A stretch of DNA of 33,316 nucleotides from Gammaproteobacteria bacterium (GTDB taxonomy: Bacteria; Pseudomonadota; Gammaproteobacteria; Poriferisulfidales; Poriferisulfidaceae), in assembly GCA_026713705.1 (NCBI GenBank), contig JAPONY010000093.1:1-33316 (forward strand). Direction: 5' to 3'. The first letter of the stretch is position 1. Each line of letters begins with the position of its first letter. Positions 3,511 to 14,963 of the stretch are shown here, piece by piece. The notes beneath the pieces are model-generated. The model saw nothing but the letters and a program-made list of their open reading frames with translations. It was not told where the DNA came from and did no database searches. The position numbers were made by a program, and so were the translations under genes.

Positions 3511-3649
3511 AAACGATGCGGTCCGAATGCGCGACTTGTCCTAGAATTTTGAAAGAGCAGATCACCTGATAGAAATTTTACAGGACTGCCTCTAACCGTG
3601 CCTTAAATTTTTTTGCTCTGAATTTTCGCTATGCGGCAGTTGCGTCGCC

Positions 3650-3937
3650 CTAAGCGGCAGCAACTCGCTCAACTTTGATTCTATGCTCTAGGTCGCGCGA
3701 CTGGGCAAGGTCAAAAGCCAACTGCATTCCAAGCCACGTTTCAGGGGTTGAACCAAACGCCTTCGATAGCCGGTAAGCCATTTCAATCGAAACAGATGCC
3801 TTTTCATTGACCAGATTGGAGAGTGTCTGGCGCCCGACTCCGAGCCTATTGGCTCCCTCGGTCACCGACAGACCCAACGGCTTCAGGCACTCTTCGCGCA
3901 CGATGACGCCAGGGTGCACAGGGTTCTTCATTGCCAT
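3650..3937 (-). CDS. higA: HigA-type antitoxin, HTH (XRE) domain
   Basis: MAMKNPVHPGVIVREECLKPLGLSVTEGANRLGVGRQTLSNLVNEKASVSIEMAYRLSKAFGSTPETWL matches the HigA antitoxin family; directly downstream of higB. Confidence 0.93.
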   Translation of the reverse strand: MAMKNPVHPGVIVREECLKPLGLSVTEGANRLGVGRQTLSNLVNEKASVSIEMAYRLSKAFGSTPETWLGMQLAFDLAQSRDLEHRIKVERVAAA

Positions 3938-3948
3938 TTCAACACCTC

Positions 3949-4227
3949 CTAATGGTAGTCAAGATAGTCGACATCCAAAGCATGTCCTTCCTCGAATCGA
4001 AATACAACTCGCCAATTGGCCGAGACAGAAACCGAATAATAACCTTTCATGCGACCCTTTAGTGGATGTAATCGAAAGCCTGGGATATCCATTCCTGTGG
4101 GGCTGAGGCTCTGATCCAATACGGTTAGGATTCGCATAATTTTCGTAACGTGACTTTGTGCCACCTTGGAGGAATGTCCTCGTTCATAGATCTCTTTCAG
4201 GCCGCGATGCCGAAACGTCTTGATCAT
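3949..4227 (-). CDS. higB: HigB-type toxin (RelE superfamily mRNA interferase)
   Basis: MIKTFRHRGLKEIYERGHSSKV...HPLKGRMKGYYSVSVSANWRVVFRFEEGHALDVDYLDYH is canonical HigB. Confidence 0.93.
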   Translation of the reverse strand: MIKTFRHRGLKEIYERGHSSKVAQSHVTKIMRILTVLDQSLSPTGMDIPGFRLHPLKGRMKGYYSVSVSANWRVVFRFEEGHALDVDYLDYH

Positions 4228-4233
4228 TTGCTT

Positions 4234-4262
4234 ATTGTATGGTGTCTATCGACAGTAGTCAA
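4234..4262 (-). promoter_or_regulatory. Predicted sigma-70 promoter of higBA (TTGACT-N17-TACAAT) with an internal palindrome TGTCTATCGACA (4243-4254), candidate HigA operator
   Basis: Minus strand: -35 TTGACT (4262-4257), 17-nt spacer, -10 TACAAT (4239-4234); the 12-nt palindrome lies inside the spacer. Confidence 0.6.
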
Positions 4263-4312
4263 TGTCAGTTCGAATGGGTCTCCTTGCTAAAATTAGGTTC
4301 AGGCTCGTATTC

Positions 4313-5728
4313 ATGACCGAAAAAATCCTGTTTCTGACTGGGAAGCTTGCCGAGCGGAGCCTGCATCGCGTGCTGGAATCCATGCAGCCGACGGATTTCG
4401 ACTACGAGGTCCGCCAAGTCGGCGCAAGCGTTGCCGCGCTGATGACCTCGAAACTGATCCAGAAACGGCTTGAACTCCCGTCGGGAATCGACCGCATTCT
4501 CCTGCCTGGCCGGGTTCGCGGAGACCTAAAGCCACTGGAGGTGCAATTCGGAGTGCCGGTCGAGCGCGGCCCCGATGAACTCAAGGATCTCCCTACTTAT
4601 TTTGGCCGGGCTGCGATGGCCGAAGACCTGACTCGCTACGATGTCCGAATCTTCGCCGAAATCACCGAAGCGCCCAATCTCAGCCTGGATGCCATCCTGG
4701 CCGAAGCCCGCCGCTATCAGAAAGATGGCGCCGACATTATCGATGTCGGCTGCCTGCCAGGAGTGGAGTTCCCGCATCTGGTCGAAACCGTGCAGATGCT
4801 GAAACAGGAAGACTTCGTGGTGAGCGTCGATTCGCTGGAAACACAGGATCTGATCGCTGGGGGACAGGCGGGAGCAGATTTCCTCCTGAGCTTGAGATCG
4901 GACACTCTATGGGTTGCCGACGAGGTTGATTCCATCCCTGTGCTCATCGCCGACAACAACACGGATCTCGACTCCCTGTACGCCTGCATCGAACACTGTC
5001 TGGAGAAAGACCAGCCGTTTCTCGCCGACCCCATTCTCGATCCCATCCATTTCGGCTGCGCCGACTCGATTGCTCGCTATGTCGAGCTTCGACGCCGTTA
5101 TCCGGACATCCAGATCATGATGGGCATCGGCAACCTGACCGAACTGACCCATGCAGATACGGCCGGCATGAATGCCCTGCTGTTCGGCTTGATCTCCGAG
5201 CTGAACATTCAGTACGCGCTGACCACCCAAGTCAGCGAGCACTGCCGGGCTTCGCTGCGCGAAGCCGACCGCGCCCGTAGAATCATGCGGGCCGCGGCCG
5301 CGCACGGGATTCCTCCGAAAGGCATTGACGACCAGTTGATGATGTTGCACGAACGGCACCCTTTCCCGTACAGCCCGGAAGAAATCGCCGAATTCGCAGC
5401 CCAAGTAAAAGACCCCAATTTCAGGATTCGGGTCGCCGAAGACGGCGTTCACCTGTACAATCGGGACGGCGAATTGATTCATACGGACCCGCTCGACTTC
5501 TACCCGGACCTGGATCTGGACGACGACCCCGGGCACTTGTTCTATTTAGGCATCGAACTGACACGAGCCCAGATCGCATGGCAGCTTGGCAAGCGTTATG
5601 AGCAGGACGAGGAATTCCTGTGGGGCTGTGCCGTGACGGAATCCGCCAAGGACCTGTCGGCTTTCAGGGAAGTCGGCCCTACCCGCCAGAAACACAAGGA
5701 CAAGATCAAGCACAGGAAGTCATCCTAA
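4313..5728 (+). CDS. DUF6513-type, dihydropteroate synthase-like (pterin-binding) protein of H4MPT-type C1 metabolism
   Basis: MTEKILFLTGKLAERSLHRVLE N-terminus; TIM-barrel pterin-binding-like segment DGADIIDVGCLPG...VSVDSLETQDLIAGGQAGADFLLSL; C-terminal GHLFYLGIELTRAQIAWQLGKRYEQDEEFLWG. ATG at 4313 preferred to the upstream 4262 start. Confidence 0.8.
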   Translation: MTEKILFLTGKLAERSLHRVLESMQPTDFDYEVRQVGASVAALMTSKLIQKRLELPSGIDRILLPGRVRGDLKPLEVQFGVPVERGPDELKDLPTYFGRAAMAEDLTRYDVRIFAEITEAPNLSLDAILAEARRYQKDGADIIDVGCLPGVEFPHLVETVQMLKQEDFVVSVDSLETQDLIAGGQAGADFLLSLRSDTLWVADEVDSIPVLIADNNTDLDSLYACIEHCLEKDQPFLADPILDPIHFGCADSIARYVELRRRYPDIQIMMGIGNLTELTHADTAGMNALLFGLISELNIQYALTTQVSEHCRASLREADRARRIMRAAAAHGIPPKGIDDQLMMLHERHPFPYSPEEIAEFAAQVKDPNFRIRVAEDGVHLYNRDGELIHTDPLDFYPDLDLDDDPGHLFYLGIELTRAQIAWQLGKRYEQDEEFLWGCAVTESAKDLSAFREVGPTRQKHKDKIKHRKSS

Positions 5729-6303
5729 TGCCGAAAATCCTGGAAAGCATCGTGACGACGCGCGGTGCCGACGATCAGACGCACATCGCTCCGATGGGCG
5801 TGCATTGCCTTGATCGAAGATTGTTGCTCAAGCCGTTTCGGCCTTCGCAGACCTTGGAAAACCTCCAGCGGGAAGGTTGCGCCGTCGTGAATCGCCCGGA
5901 CGATATCCGCGTCTACGCCGGGTGCCTGACCGGACGCTACGAGTGGCCCCTGACCAGCGCCGAAATCGTACCCTGCCAGCGACTGGAGAATTGCCTGTCA
6001 CATGCGGAAGTGGAAGTAGAAAGTTTCGACGACGATCCCATCCGCCCGACCTTTACCTGCAAGATCGTGCATGAGACGGTTCATGCTCCGTTCCAAGGCT
6101 ATAACCGGGCGCAAGCAGCTGTCATTGAACTGGCCATCCTGGTCAGCCGGCTGGGCCGGCTGCCGGATGAGAAAATCCGCGGCGAAATCGAATATCTCGA
6201 AATCGCAATTGAGAAAACCGCTGGGGAAATCGAACTGGAAGCATGGAATTGGCTTATGGAACGCGTCCACGAGCACTTTGCGCCCAAAGAGGCTGCATCA
6301 TGA
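5728..6303 (+). CDS. DUF447 family protein (archaeal/methylotroph-type)
   Basis: MPKILESIVTTRGADDQTHIAPMGVHC...LENLQREGCAVVN resembles DUF447; start overlaps the preceding stop (TAATG). Confidence 0.75.
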   Translation: MPKILESIVTTRGADDQTHIAPMGVHCLDRRLLLKPFRPSQTLENLQREGCAVVNRPDDIRVYAGCLTGRYEWPLTSAEIVPCQRLENCLSHAEVEVESFDDDPIRPTFTCKIVHETVHAPFQGYNRAQAAVIELAILVSRLGRLPDEKIRGEIEYLEIAIEKTAGEIELEAWNWLMERVHEHFAPKEAAS

Positions 6304-7046
6304 CCCGTATCCTTGGAAGTGTGCGCAATCCCCAGGAGGCTGAACTGCTCCTCCAGACCTCGGTCGCAATTCTGGACTTGAAGGATCCTGCCCGAGGAGC
6401 ACTGGGGGCAGCAGACCCTGTGGCGGTCTGCCAAGTCGTCGACCAAGTCCAAGGCCGGCGTCACGTCAGTGCGGCTGCCGGCTCGGCAGATGATGGGGAT
6501 GTACTGGAGCAAGCCCGCCGATTGTCTCTGGAAGGTGTCGATTTCGTCAAGATTGGATTTTCCCGCCCATCCCAGCAGGCCCTGCTGCCTGAATTCCGGG
6601 CAGCCATCACCGCCCCCGTCCAGGCCGTTGCAGTGCTGTTTGCGGACAGCCCGGAAATCGACCCCATGCAGTGGGTCGGTCCAGCCCGCATGGCGGGCTT
6701 TGCCGGTCTGATGCTGGACACCGCCGACAAGCATTCCGGGTCGCTGGATCAGCACATGGATTTGGCACAGGCAGCAGACTGGGTGCGGGCCACCAGGGAG
6801 TCAGGGCTGTTGTGTGGACTGGCCGGCCGCTTGGATGCCGAATCCGCCCGGTATTTTCTATCCGCCCGCCCAGATTACCTAGGTTTTCGAAGCGCCTTGT
6901 GCAACCGTTCCATCAGGACTGGACCCATCTGCCTGGAGACGACCCTCAGGTTACTCGAAACTCTGCGTGAATCCAGTGCCGAATTGCCGGACCTGCCGAC
7001 TATGATCGACATGCGTCCTGCCTTGGCTCCTGACAATGCGCTATAA
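6300..7046 (+). CDS. MfnB-like (5-formylfuran-3-yl)methyl phosphate synthase (DUF556 family)
   Basis: MTRILGSVRNPQEAELLLQTSVAILDLKDPARGALGA, ...GVDFVKIGF, ...MLDTADKHSGSLDQHM, ...GLCNR-type barrel features; start overlaps the DUF447 stop (ATGA). Confidence 0.82.
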   Translation: MTRILGSVRNPQEAELLLQTSVAILDLKDPARGALGAADPVAVCQVVDQVQGRRHVSAAAGSADDGDVLEQARRLSLEGVDFVKIGFSRPSQQALLPEFRAAITAPVQAVAVLFADSPEIDPMQWVGPARMAGFAGLMLDTADKHSGSLDQHMDLAQAADWVRATRESGLLCGLAGRLDAESARYFLSARPDYLGFRSALCNRSIRTGPICLETTLRLLETLRESSAELPDLPTMIDMRPALAPDNAL

Positions 7047-7070: not shown

Positions 7071-8621
7071 CTATCGGAACCTTCTGGGAAAATCCAAACC
7101 TACTCGTTTTTCACGCTGGTAGAAGCAAAACGTAAGAACCAGCAAAGACAGAGCAGCAAAGAGCCATTCTCCAAATCGAACATACGGCGTAACCCCTTCC
7201 CGGGGCTGCACCTCACCTTCCAAGATCGCCGTTGCAAACTGAGGGGCAGTTGCCCGGAGAGTCCCGTCTGCGCCAATAATCGCGGTCACGCCAGTACTTG
7301 CGACCCGAAGGAGCTCTCGGGCCGTCTCCGCAGCGCGCACTCGGCTTGATTCCAGATGCTGCCATGGCGCCCGGGTCGCCCCGAACCATGCATCATTGCT
7401 CACGTTCACCAGATAGGCTGCTTCTGGAAAAGACAGGCGGGGGATCGACGGATAGACCGATTCATAGCAGATGGTTATCCCGACCGGACTGCCGCGCACC
7501 TGAAGCAGGGGCCGGCCTTCGGCAGGCTGCAACGCGCGCATCCTGAAATGAATCTTCCGATACAGCGGGCCGAGCCAGTCTTCCAGCGGGGAATATTCCC
7601 CGAAGGGCACCAGCCGGCGTTTTCCGTAACGCTGGCCAGTCCTGATGTTCATCAGTCCGTTGTGCGGGCCGGACTGATCGCCCTCGCGGTAGAAAACACC
7701 GGCAAGCAGCGTGGTGTCGTCGCCTAGAACCTCATCTTGAATATTTTTATAGAAATCTTCTATCTCACTGTAATATTGAGGAATTGCCGCTTCTGGCCAG
7801 ATGATTAGGGGGGTTTCCTCTACCTGTTGCGTCAAATGCCAGTAAGTCTCCTTGATGACCCCCCGTTTTTTCGCCCGCCAGCGTGCGTCCTGATTCAGAT
7901 TGGGCTGAACCATGGCCACTTCAATTGATTCCCCAAACGGCGTGCTCCACATACTCCATGCGACGGGGCGTAGGAATTCTCCACCCGCGACTATCACCAT
8001 CACGGCTCCCAGCCAGACTGCCCGCATGGAAAACGGCCGGCGCAACCATGCCGCCGTCCACCCTGCCGCCAGCAGGAGCATCAATCCGGCCCCATGCACT
8101 CCCAGTAGCGGCAAATAACTGGCCCAGGGGCTATCCAAGCTCCCCTGCCCGATCAGTACCCAGGGAAATCCGGTGAGCAGCGTTCCGCGCAACCATTCCG
8201 CCGCCGCCAGCAACACGGCTGCGCCAGTCAAACGTTTTACCCCTTTTGGCAACAGGCATGCGGCCATCGATGCCGCCAGCATCGGGTACAAGGACAAATA
8301 CAACACCAGAAGTGCAGCGAGCGCGATGGCCAGCCACAATGGCGTGCTGGCATAGTTGTAGAGGCTGTAGTAGACCCAATAGACCCCGAATCCGAAATAT
8401 CCAAGGCCGAATAATCCCCCTCGCTTCGCAGCCGTTGCGGTCGTGCCCGAGTGGAGCGTGCAGAAGAATAGAACCAGTCCAGCCCAGAGTGCCGGACGGA
8501 AAGCGTATGGGGCAAACCCAAACGAGGCGATAATGCCGCCCGCCAGAGCACTGGCGTGACCCCACGGCAACCGGCCAAGTCCGCGCCAAAGCCTCAGCGG
8601 ACCGGACAGGTTGACGTCCAC
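7071..8621 (-). CDS. lnt: Apolipoprotein N-acyltransferase
   Basis: N-terminal hydrophobic segments plus nitrilase domain: IIWPEAAIPQYY, KRRLVPFGEYSPLE, GITICYESVYP. Confidence 0.95.
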   Translation of the reverse strand: MDVNLSGPLRLWRGLGRLPWGHASALAGGIIASFGFAPYAFRPALWAGLVLFFCTLHSGTTATAAKRGGLFGLGYFGFGVYWVYYSLYNYASTPLWLAIALAALLVLYLSLYPMLAASMAACLLPKGVKRLTGAAVLLAAAEWLRGTLLTGFPWVLIGQGSLDSPWASYLPLLGVHGAGLMLLLAAGWTAAWLRRPFSMRAVWLGAVMVIVAGGEFLRPVAWSMWSTPFGESIEVAMVQPNLNQDARWRAKKRGVIKETYWHLTQQVEETPLIIWPEAAIPQYYSEIEDFYKNIQDEVLGDDTTLLAGVFYREGDQSGPHNGLMNIRTGQRYGKRRLVPFGEYSPLEDWLGPLYRKIHFRMRALQPAEGRPLLQVRGSPVGITICYESVYPSIPRLSFPEAAYLVNVSNDAWFGATRAPWQHLESSRVRAAETARELLRVASTGVTAIIGADGTLRATAPQFATAILEGEVQPREGVTPYVRFGEWLFAALSLLVLTFCFYQREKRVGLDFPRRFR

Positions 8622-14192: not shown

Positions 14193-14963
14193 ATGGTAGC
14201 CGAAGAAGATACCCCCAACTTGGCGCTTGAACACGTCAAAACTTTAGAAAGCATCCTTATTGCAGCCGCAACAGGCGGCTCCCACGAGGATCACAACCAT
14301 GACTATGAGCGTCTGCGACGAGAGTTCATGAATAGTCCAAAGATAAAGCCACTCCTCCCGGACTTCGTCCGTGATTATCGAAGCCTTTCAGCATTCTGGC
14401 CCTTTATCAAAGAGCAAGCGAGTACTTATGCCGAACGACGCCAAATCATTGGGACAGCATTCAATCCACTGGTCGATCAACTTGAAAGTTTGGATTGCAT
14501 GCCAAGTGATGCCGCCATATCGGATGTGCTTAAGAAGTTTGATGCTGAAAATGTCCACGTTATCTGGGTTAAAGCACTTGAAAGGCGTTCAACCGATCCG
14601 GAAGGTGCGATCACAATAGCACGAACATTGTTAGAGGCTGTGATGAAACGTATTCTTGATGAGAGAGGGAAAAAATATATGGATAAAGAGGATTTGCCGA
14701 AACTCCACGGCATGGTTGCGGTCGAGTTGAACCTCGCCCCAAACCAACATTCAGAGGAAGCATTTCGAGCAATTTTAGGGGGAGCAATGAATCTGGTGAA
14801 CGGCATTGCCACACTTCGTAACCGCTTGTCCGATTCCCATGGGCGAGGTGGGCCTCTACCTGTTCGTCCATCAGCACGTCATGCCAATTTAGCCGTCAAT
14901 ATGGCAGGAACTGTTGCTGTCTTTTTGATTGAAACACATCTTAACCAGTTAGATGAGTGCTGA
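14193..14963 (+). CDS. Abortive infection family protein with Abi_C-like C-terminal domain
   Basis: DPEGAITIARTLLEAVMKRILDE...DKEDLPKLHGMVAVELNLAPNQHSEEAFRAILGGAMNLVNGIATLRNRLSDSHGRG...RHANLAVNMAGTVAVFLIETH matches the Abi_C pattern. Confidence 0.82.
   Translation: MVAEEDTPNLALEHVKTLESILIAAATGGSHEDHNHDYERLRREFMNSPKIKPLLPDFVRDYRSLSAFWPFIKEQASTYAERRQIIGTAFNPLVDQLESLDCMPSDAAISDVLKKFDAENVHVIWVKALERRSTDPEGAITIARTLLEAVMKRILDERGKKYMDKEDLPKLHGMVAVELNLAPNQHSEEAFRAILGGAMNLVNGIATLRNRLSDSHGRGGPLPVRPSARHANLAVNMAGTVAVFLIETHLNQLDEC

Follow-up and report, generated by a model that had tools for sequence, protein, structure and literature searches.

The question raised by this locus is what three closely packed genes of an archaeal-type C1-cofactor cassette do inside a housekeeping region of a gammaproteobacterial genome, and, in particular, which branch of cofactor synthesis is served by the two DUF proteins among their products. 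In the window (the whole stretch of 33,316 nucleotides analysed here), a DUF6513 or TIGR00284-like gene (4313..5728, 471 aa), a DUF447 gene (5728..6303, 191 aa) and an mfnB/Orf22 homolog predicted to encode (5-formylfuran-3-yl)methyl phosphate synthase (6300..7046, 248 aa) follow one another on the plus strand. As the first-pass annotation had described, DUF6513 and DUF447 are joined by a TAATG stop/start overlap (5726..5730, plus strand), DUF447 and mfnB by an ATGA start/stop overlap (6300..6303, plus strand), and the surroundings comprise recJ, a nadD-like gene, lnt, corC and miaB, to which phoH can be added; the trio itself lies between recJ and lnt. The starts at 4313, 5728 and 6300 are backed by alignments of 19 to 22 homologs, which lend no support to the longer mechanical open reading frames beginning at 4262, 5620 and 6243. 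A congener (locus L059) likewise has the three frames open, at 90-97% identity and with the overlaps kept. A recent transfer of the cassette was also considered and set aside, its GC3 (0.65-0.72, against 0.63-0.69 in the neighbours) being that of its surroundings and its GC content (0.590) that of the genome (mean 0.587). The gap between recJ and DUF6513 (3511-4312) measures about 800 bases, and is shorter (about 130-590 bases) in two congeners (L055 and L057). Elsewhere in the window, uvrA has as its neighbour a gene (14193-14963, plus strand) whose product carries an abortive-infection domain at its C-terminus (Abi_C, 7.2e-19).

The family calls made at first pass were borne out by profile search, each above its Pfam gathering cut-off. 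The first protein matched DUF6513 (PF20123; E = 6.5e-36, 122.9 bits against a cut-off of 23.9), the second both DUF447_N (PF04289; 5.4e-24, 84.8 bits against 24) and DUF447_C (PF20766; 2.4e-16, 59.9 bits against 24.8), and the third 4HFCP_synth (PF04476; 2.6e-51, 175 bits against 22.4). The latter also matched the MJ1099 structure 4rc1 (2e-9) and, with a best score of 201.8 bits against an NCBIfam equivalog cut-off of 297, was filed as a divergent homolog of MfnB. The residues corresponding to D25, K27, K85, D151 and K155 of MJ1099 are identical and invariant across the alignment, all five belonging to the active site of that archaeal enzyme. Lys155 of MJ1099 is catalytic (PMC11365854). From its family and its conserved active site, the protein would convert glyceraldehyde 3-phosphate into the furan phosphate precursor of methylofuran.

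Furthermore, an H4MPT-type pathway had been predicted for the host from these three genes alone. A genome devoid of other H4MPT or methylofuran genes was looked for as the contrary outcome; instead, the rest of the genome carries fae, mch, mtdB, mptG, fhcABCD, mfnF, myfA and myfB. One contig (C51) carries mptG, mtdB, myfA, mch, myfB, orf7 (CitG family) and fae in this order, and also groups MfnF, a second ATP-grasp protein and Orf17, while another (C45) carries fhcB, fhcA and fhcD, with fhcC recognised by its GXGXG domain and its position. The fae, mch, fhcA, fhcB and fhcD products score above NCBIfam equivalog cut-offs, mptG above the RFAP-synthase subfamily cut-off and myfB above the RimK subfamily cut-off; mtdB and myfA were assigned by tblastn to the Azoarcus cluster, with 51% and 37% identity, respectively. 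The host enzymes downstream of the cofactors (Fae, MtdB, Mch and Fhc) are complete. A second formylmethanofuran:H4MPT formyltransferase (FTR) gene (L007, 2557-3483, plus strand), followed by a folD-like gene, lies on a 9.9-kb contig (C28) with a GC content of 0.609 against 0.587 for the genome, and could be a paralog or belong to a mis-binned contig. The closest public matches are gammaproteobacterial MAGs, which, judging from how the isolates are named, may come from sponge or marine samples, and the host is probably sponge-associated.

Other parts of the pathway were not recovered. The local host searches covered 1.69 of 1.94 Mb (87%), so that absences drawn from them are provisional, and those of DmrB, MfnE and XoxF were rechecked by whole-genome searches. 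DmrB was found neither in the host nor in the whole genomes of its genus, one of which is a single contig, and DmrA was not found in the host. MfnE had no recognisable match in the whole genomes of the genus or in the 87% of the host genome covered, and may be divergent or replaced. The search for mxaF/xoxF suggested at first pass returned, across the genus (genomes G000-G005), weak partial matches only (E about 1e-4), the best XoxF match reaching E = 8e-5 with 31% identity over 105 aa; no methanol dehydrogenase was found.

The arrangement of the trio recurs well beyond the host. In a set of 113 genomes, made up of the host and 112 relatives that mostly share its class, DUF6513 was present in 25, DUF447 in 24, MfnB in 25, Mch and CitG/Orf7 in 28 each, and RFAP synthase in 31, with a score above the cut-off in 26 of them. 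Each cassette gene co-occurred with each of Mch, RFAP synthase (a set of 29, two weak matches being left out) and CitG at a Fisher p of about 5e-14 or lower, uncorrected for the relatedness of the genomes, and nearly all exceptions were incomplete genomes. The 18 related loci holding both DUF447 and MfnB have them in the same order throughout, overlapping in 17 (in 12 by four bases), with DUF6513 directly upstream in 17. With relatives repeating the order and so widely keeping the overlap of DUF447 and MfnB, the arrangement is more than chance.

In a scan of public genomes, which yielded 80 loci, DUF447 was within the flank in 64 and MfnB in 62, and the same trio order was seen in about 60 of these proteobacterial loci, mostly of methanotrophs and methylotrophs, often along with the same overlaps; among 61 DUF6513/DUF447 pairs lying on one strand, 43 share between 1 and 11 bases. 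A DmrB/AfpA flavoprotein gene lies within 10 kb in 64 of the 80, usually directly upstream, and the order DmrB-DUF6513-DUF447-MfnB was observed in Methylococcales, Methylophilaceae, Rhodocyclaceae and Paraburkholderia. In 37 of the 80 loci (L189 and 36 others) folP lies upstream of DUF6513 on the minus strand, and in many Methylococcales it stands close 5' of the cassette that begins DmrB-DUF6513, facing the other way. In annotated replicons of Azoarcus (the pAZKH supercluster of Azoarcus sp. KH32C, L073), Azospirillum, Thiodictyon and Phyllobacterium, DUF6513 and DUF447 are adjacent as in the host, and MfnB follows them directly in three of the four. In Azoarcus, Azospirillum and Phyllobacterium the DUF pair lies inside full H4MPT superclusters and is surrounded by fae, mch, mtdB, mptG or PQQ dehydrogenase genes; the trio adjoins formate dehydrogenase genes in Thiodictyon, and dihydroneopterin aldolase and flavoprotein genes come between the DUF pair and MfnB in Phyllobacterium. 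Unlike the host, three of these replicons have a flavoprotein gene upstream, and those of Azoarcus and Azospirillum have a PQQ methanol/ethanol dehydrogenase nearby.

In this context, the idea of a special minimal unit, put forward at first pass, did not survive: the trio is one island of a scattered pathway, keeps its order across proteobacteria and is already contained in the published archaeal-like cluster (PMC8141765; PMC3615186). An archaeal-like cluster has been described in which Orf22 is MfnB, Orf21 is MfnE and Orf9 is MfnF (PMC8141765), and Methylosinus trichosporium has an orf19-orf20-afpA-orf21-orf22 island (PMC3615186). By elimination, which is our own step and not that of the papers, DUF6513 and DUF447 are probably Orf19 and Orf20. 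The trio belongs to this published set and is not unusual, sharing with it the families, their tight linkage, MfnB as Orf22 and the same partner enzymes. The archaeal-like cluster, however, includes AfpA/DmrB and MfnE/Orf21, whereas the host has no AfpA/DmrB gene or recognisable MfnE/Orf21, and its trio differs further in lying between recJ and lnt in a genome in which no methanol dehydrogenase was found. We found no assigned activity for Orf19, Orf20 or DUF6513 in the literature.

The DUF6513 protein consists of an N-terminal DUF6513 domain, a central TIM barrel like that of dihydropteroate synthase (DHPS) and a C-terminal DUF4346-like part. It is homologous to TIGR00284 (E = 7.8e-51), with 173.1 bits lying below the cut-off of 256.65, and gave sub-threshold matches to Pterin_bind (PF00809; 4.4e-5, 23.7 bits against a gathering cut-off of 25.5) and PterinBD-DUF4346 (1.3e-4). 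In a Foldseek search of the PDB with the AF2 model (pLDDT 88.1, pTM 0.75), dihydropteroate synthases took nearly all top ranks, with TM scores of up to 0.67 of the target, and the sequence profile weakly matched sulfonamide-resistant DHPS chains. An authentic folP is present on another contig of the host genome. The fold match, taken with the coexisting folP, speaks for a second, DHPS-like enzyme that serves the RFAP branch, and the modelled DUF6513 protein most likely plays the part of a dihydropteroate synthase in methanopterin synthesis. For the TIGR00284 protein of the archaeon M. jannaschii, a DHPS-like nature is a suspicion of long standing. Beyond the shared barrel, the DUF6513 protein differs from FolP in its extra N- and C-terminal domains and in that the FolP motifs were not recovered. 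SRK and RVHD occur in every FolP row, and none is visible in DUF6513, the profile alignment omitting that half. Against the DHPS-like role speak the scores below the Pterin_bind and TIGR00284 cut-offs, the restriction of the alignment with FolP to the N-terminal part of the barrel and, by eye, the GIGN of DUF6513 where FolP has SRK.

That same GIGN resembles, by eye, the Asn-containing motif of pterin-dependent methyltransferases such as MeTr, and MetH is also among the fold matches, as would be expected if DUF6513 bound a pterin in order to transfer methyl or C1 groups, in the manner of MetH or MeTr, and were not a condensing enzyme. With DHPS structures so dominant among the top ranks, and no corrinoid partner gene beside DUF6513 in the inspected loci, we regard this as quite improbable. 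A role of both DUF proteins in methylofuran rather than pterin synthesis would suit the translational coupling of DUF447 to MfnB kept in related loci, and has a precedent in Orf17, which proved to be a methylofuran gene although a homolog of it had earlier been placed with H4MPT (PMC8141765). It is nonetheless unlikely, given the predicted pterin-type fold of DUF6513, the separation of MfnB from the DUF pair in Phyllobacterium and the genome of Sulfolobus acidocaldarius, which has DUF6513 and DUF447 without MfnB. Of the first-pass proposal that the DUF products act in pterin or furan assembly, the pterin side is favoured, since both families occur in archaea that lack MfnB. An unused or decayed remnant, to which the undetected MfnE and the want of a strong XoxF match in the genus could point, is extremely improbable in view of the open, conserved frames and retained overlaps in the congener, the intact MfnB catalytic residues and the complete downstream enzymes.

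As regards DUF447, the AF2 model (pLDDT 95.8) has an FMN split-barrel fold and matched four solved DUF447 proteins over the whole length, namely 3b5m (TM 0.86; 34% identity) and the archaeal entries 2iml, 2nr4 (MM1853) and 2ptf (MTH_863), about 20% identical and bound to FMN or riboflavin phosphate. By analogy with these structures, the host protein would bind FMN, and its most likely role is a step of the pterin branch that depends on this cofactor. A link of DUF447 to cannulae is stated elsewhere (PMC13140500), where no functional test was seen, and does not fit the present context. Of the named control genomes, the same four archaea give matches to DUF447 and to RFAP synthase; CitG matches those four plus E. 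coli, and MfnB matches only the two methanogens. Moreover, in Natrinema thermotolerans (L264) a CitG-domain gene (7084-7935) and DUF447 (7932-8528) share a 4-base overlap, in a locus where the annotation lists neither H4MPT nor furan genes within 8 kb. The archaeal pattern shared with RFAP synthase and the CitG-DUF447 overlap indicate that DUF447 follows RFAP chemistry and not furan synthesis. That it is an FMN enzyme of this chemistry together with RFAP synthase and CitG/Orf7, for example a reductase of the ribofuranosyl ring to ribitol in methanopterin synthesis, is possible if doubtful, and the opening of ribofuranose to ribitol itself is a guess at what DUF447 perhaps does. Against a role on the RFAP ring stands Haloferax, which has DUF447 and an RFAP-synthase homolog without DUF6513, the control genome search returning no match there to DUF6513 or TIGR00284. 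Haloferax is said to be without methanopterin-specific enzymes (PMC8305020). The FMN-binding fold would also suit a dihydromethanopterin reductase that carries out the last step, from H2MPT to H4MPT, and takes the place of DmrA or DmrB in this lineage, where DmrB occurs in 3 of the 113 genomes against 28 with Mch, and neither protein was found in the host. However, the DmrB genes near most public loci mostly accompany DUF447, so that the two are not alternatives, and the folate-containing Haloferax also has DUF447; this assignment is hardly a likely one.

In brief, we consider the three genes to be translated together as one island of the bacterial pathway that makes the H4MPT and methylofuran cofactors, and give the whole explanation a probability of roughly 0.6. 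In this scheme, MfnB would supply the furan step, DUF6513 would couple 6-hydroxymethyl-dihydropterin diphosphate to RFAP (ribofuranosylaminobenzene phosphate), the predicted product of MptG, and DUF447 would most likely, on its fold and archaeal distribution, carry out a redox step next to RFAP in the methanopterin branch; the finished coenzymes would then serve Fae, MtdB, Mch and Fhc in the oxidation of formaldehyde to formate.

Any bacterium that has the H4MPT/methylofuran pathway should carry the trio, and the present host is a small-genome example of which parts survive in a scattered pathway without DmrA, DmrB, a recognisable MfnE or a methanol dehydrogenase. Such an example opens the roles of DUF6513 and DUF447 to testing. 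If DUF447 does act in RFAP chemistry together with RFAP synthase and CitG/Orf7, haloarchaea, in which RFAP-synthase homologs, CitG and DUF447 are retained while DUF6513 and MfnB are absent, would make an undescribed related compound. The agreement of DUF447, RFAP synthase and CitG in their archaeal distribution, along with the haloarchaeal gene overlap, points to a specific and assayable partnership.
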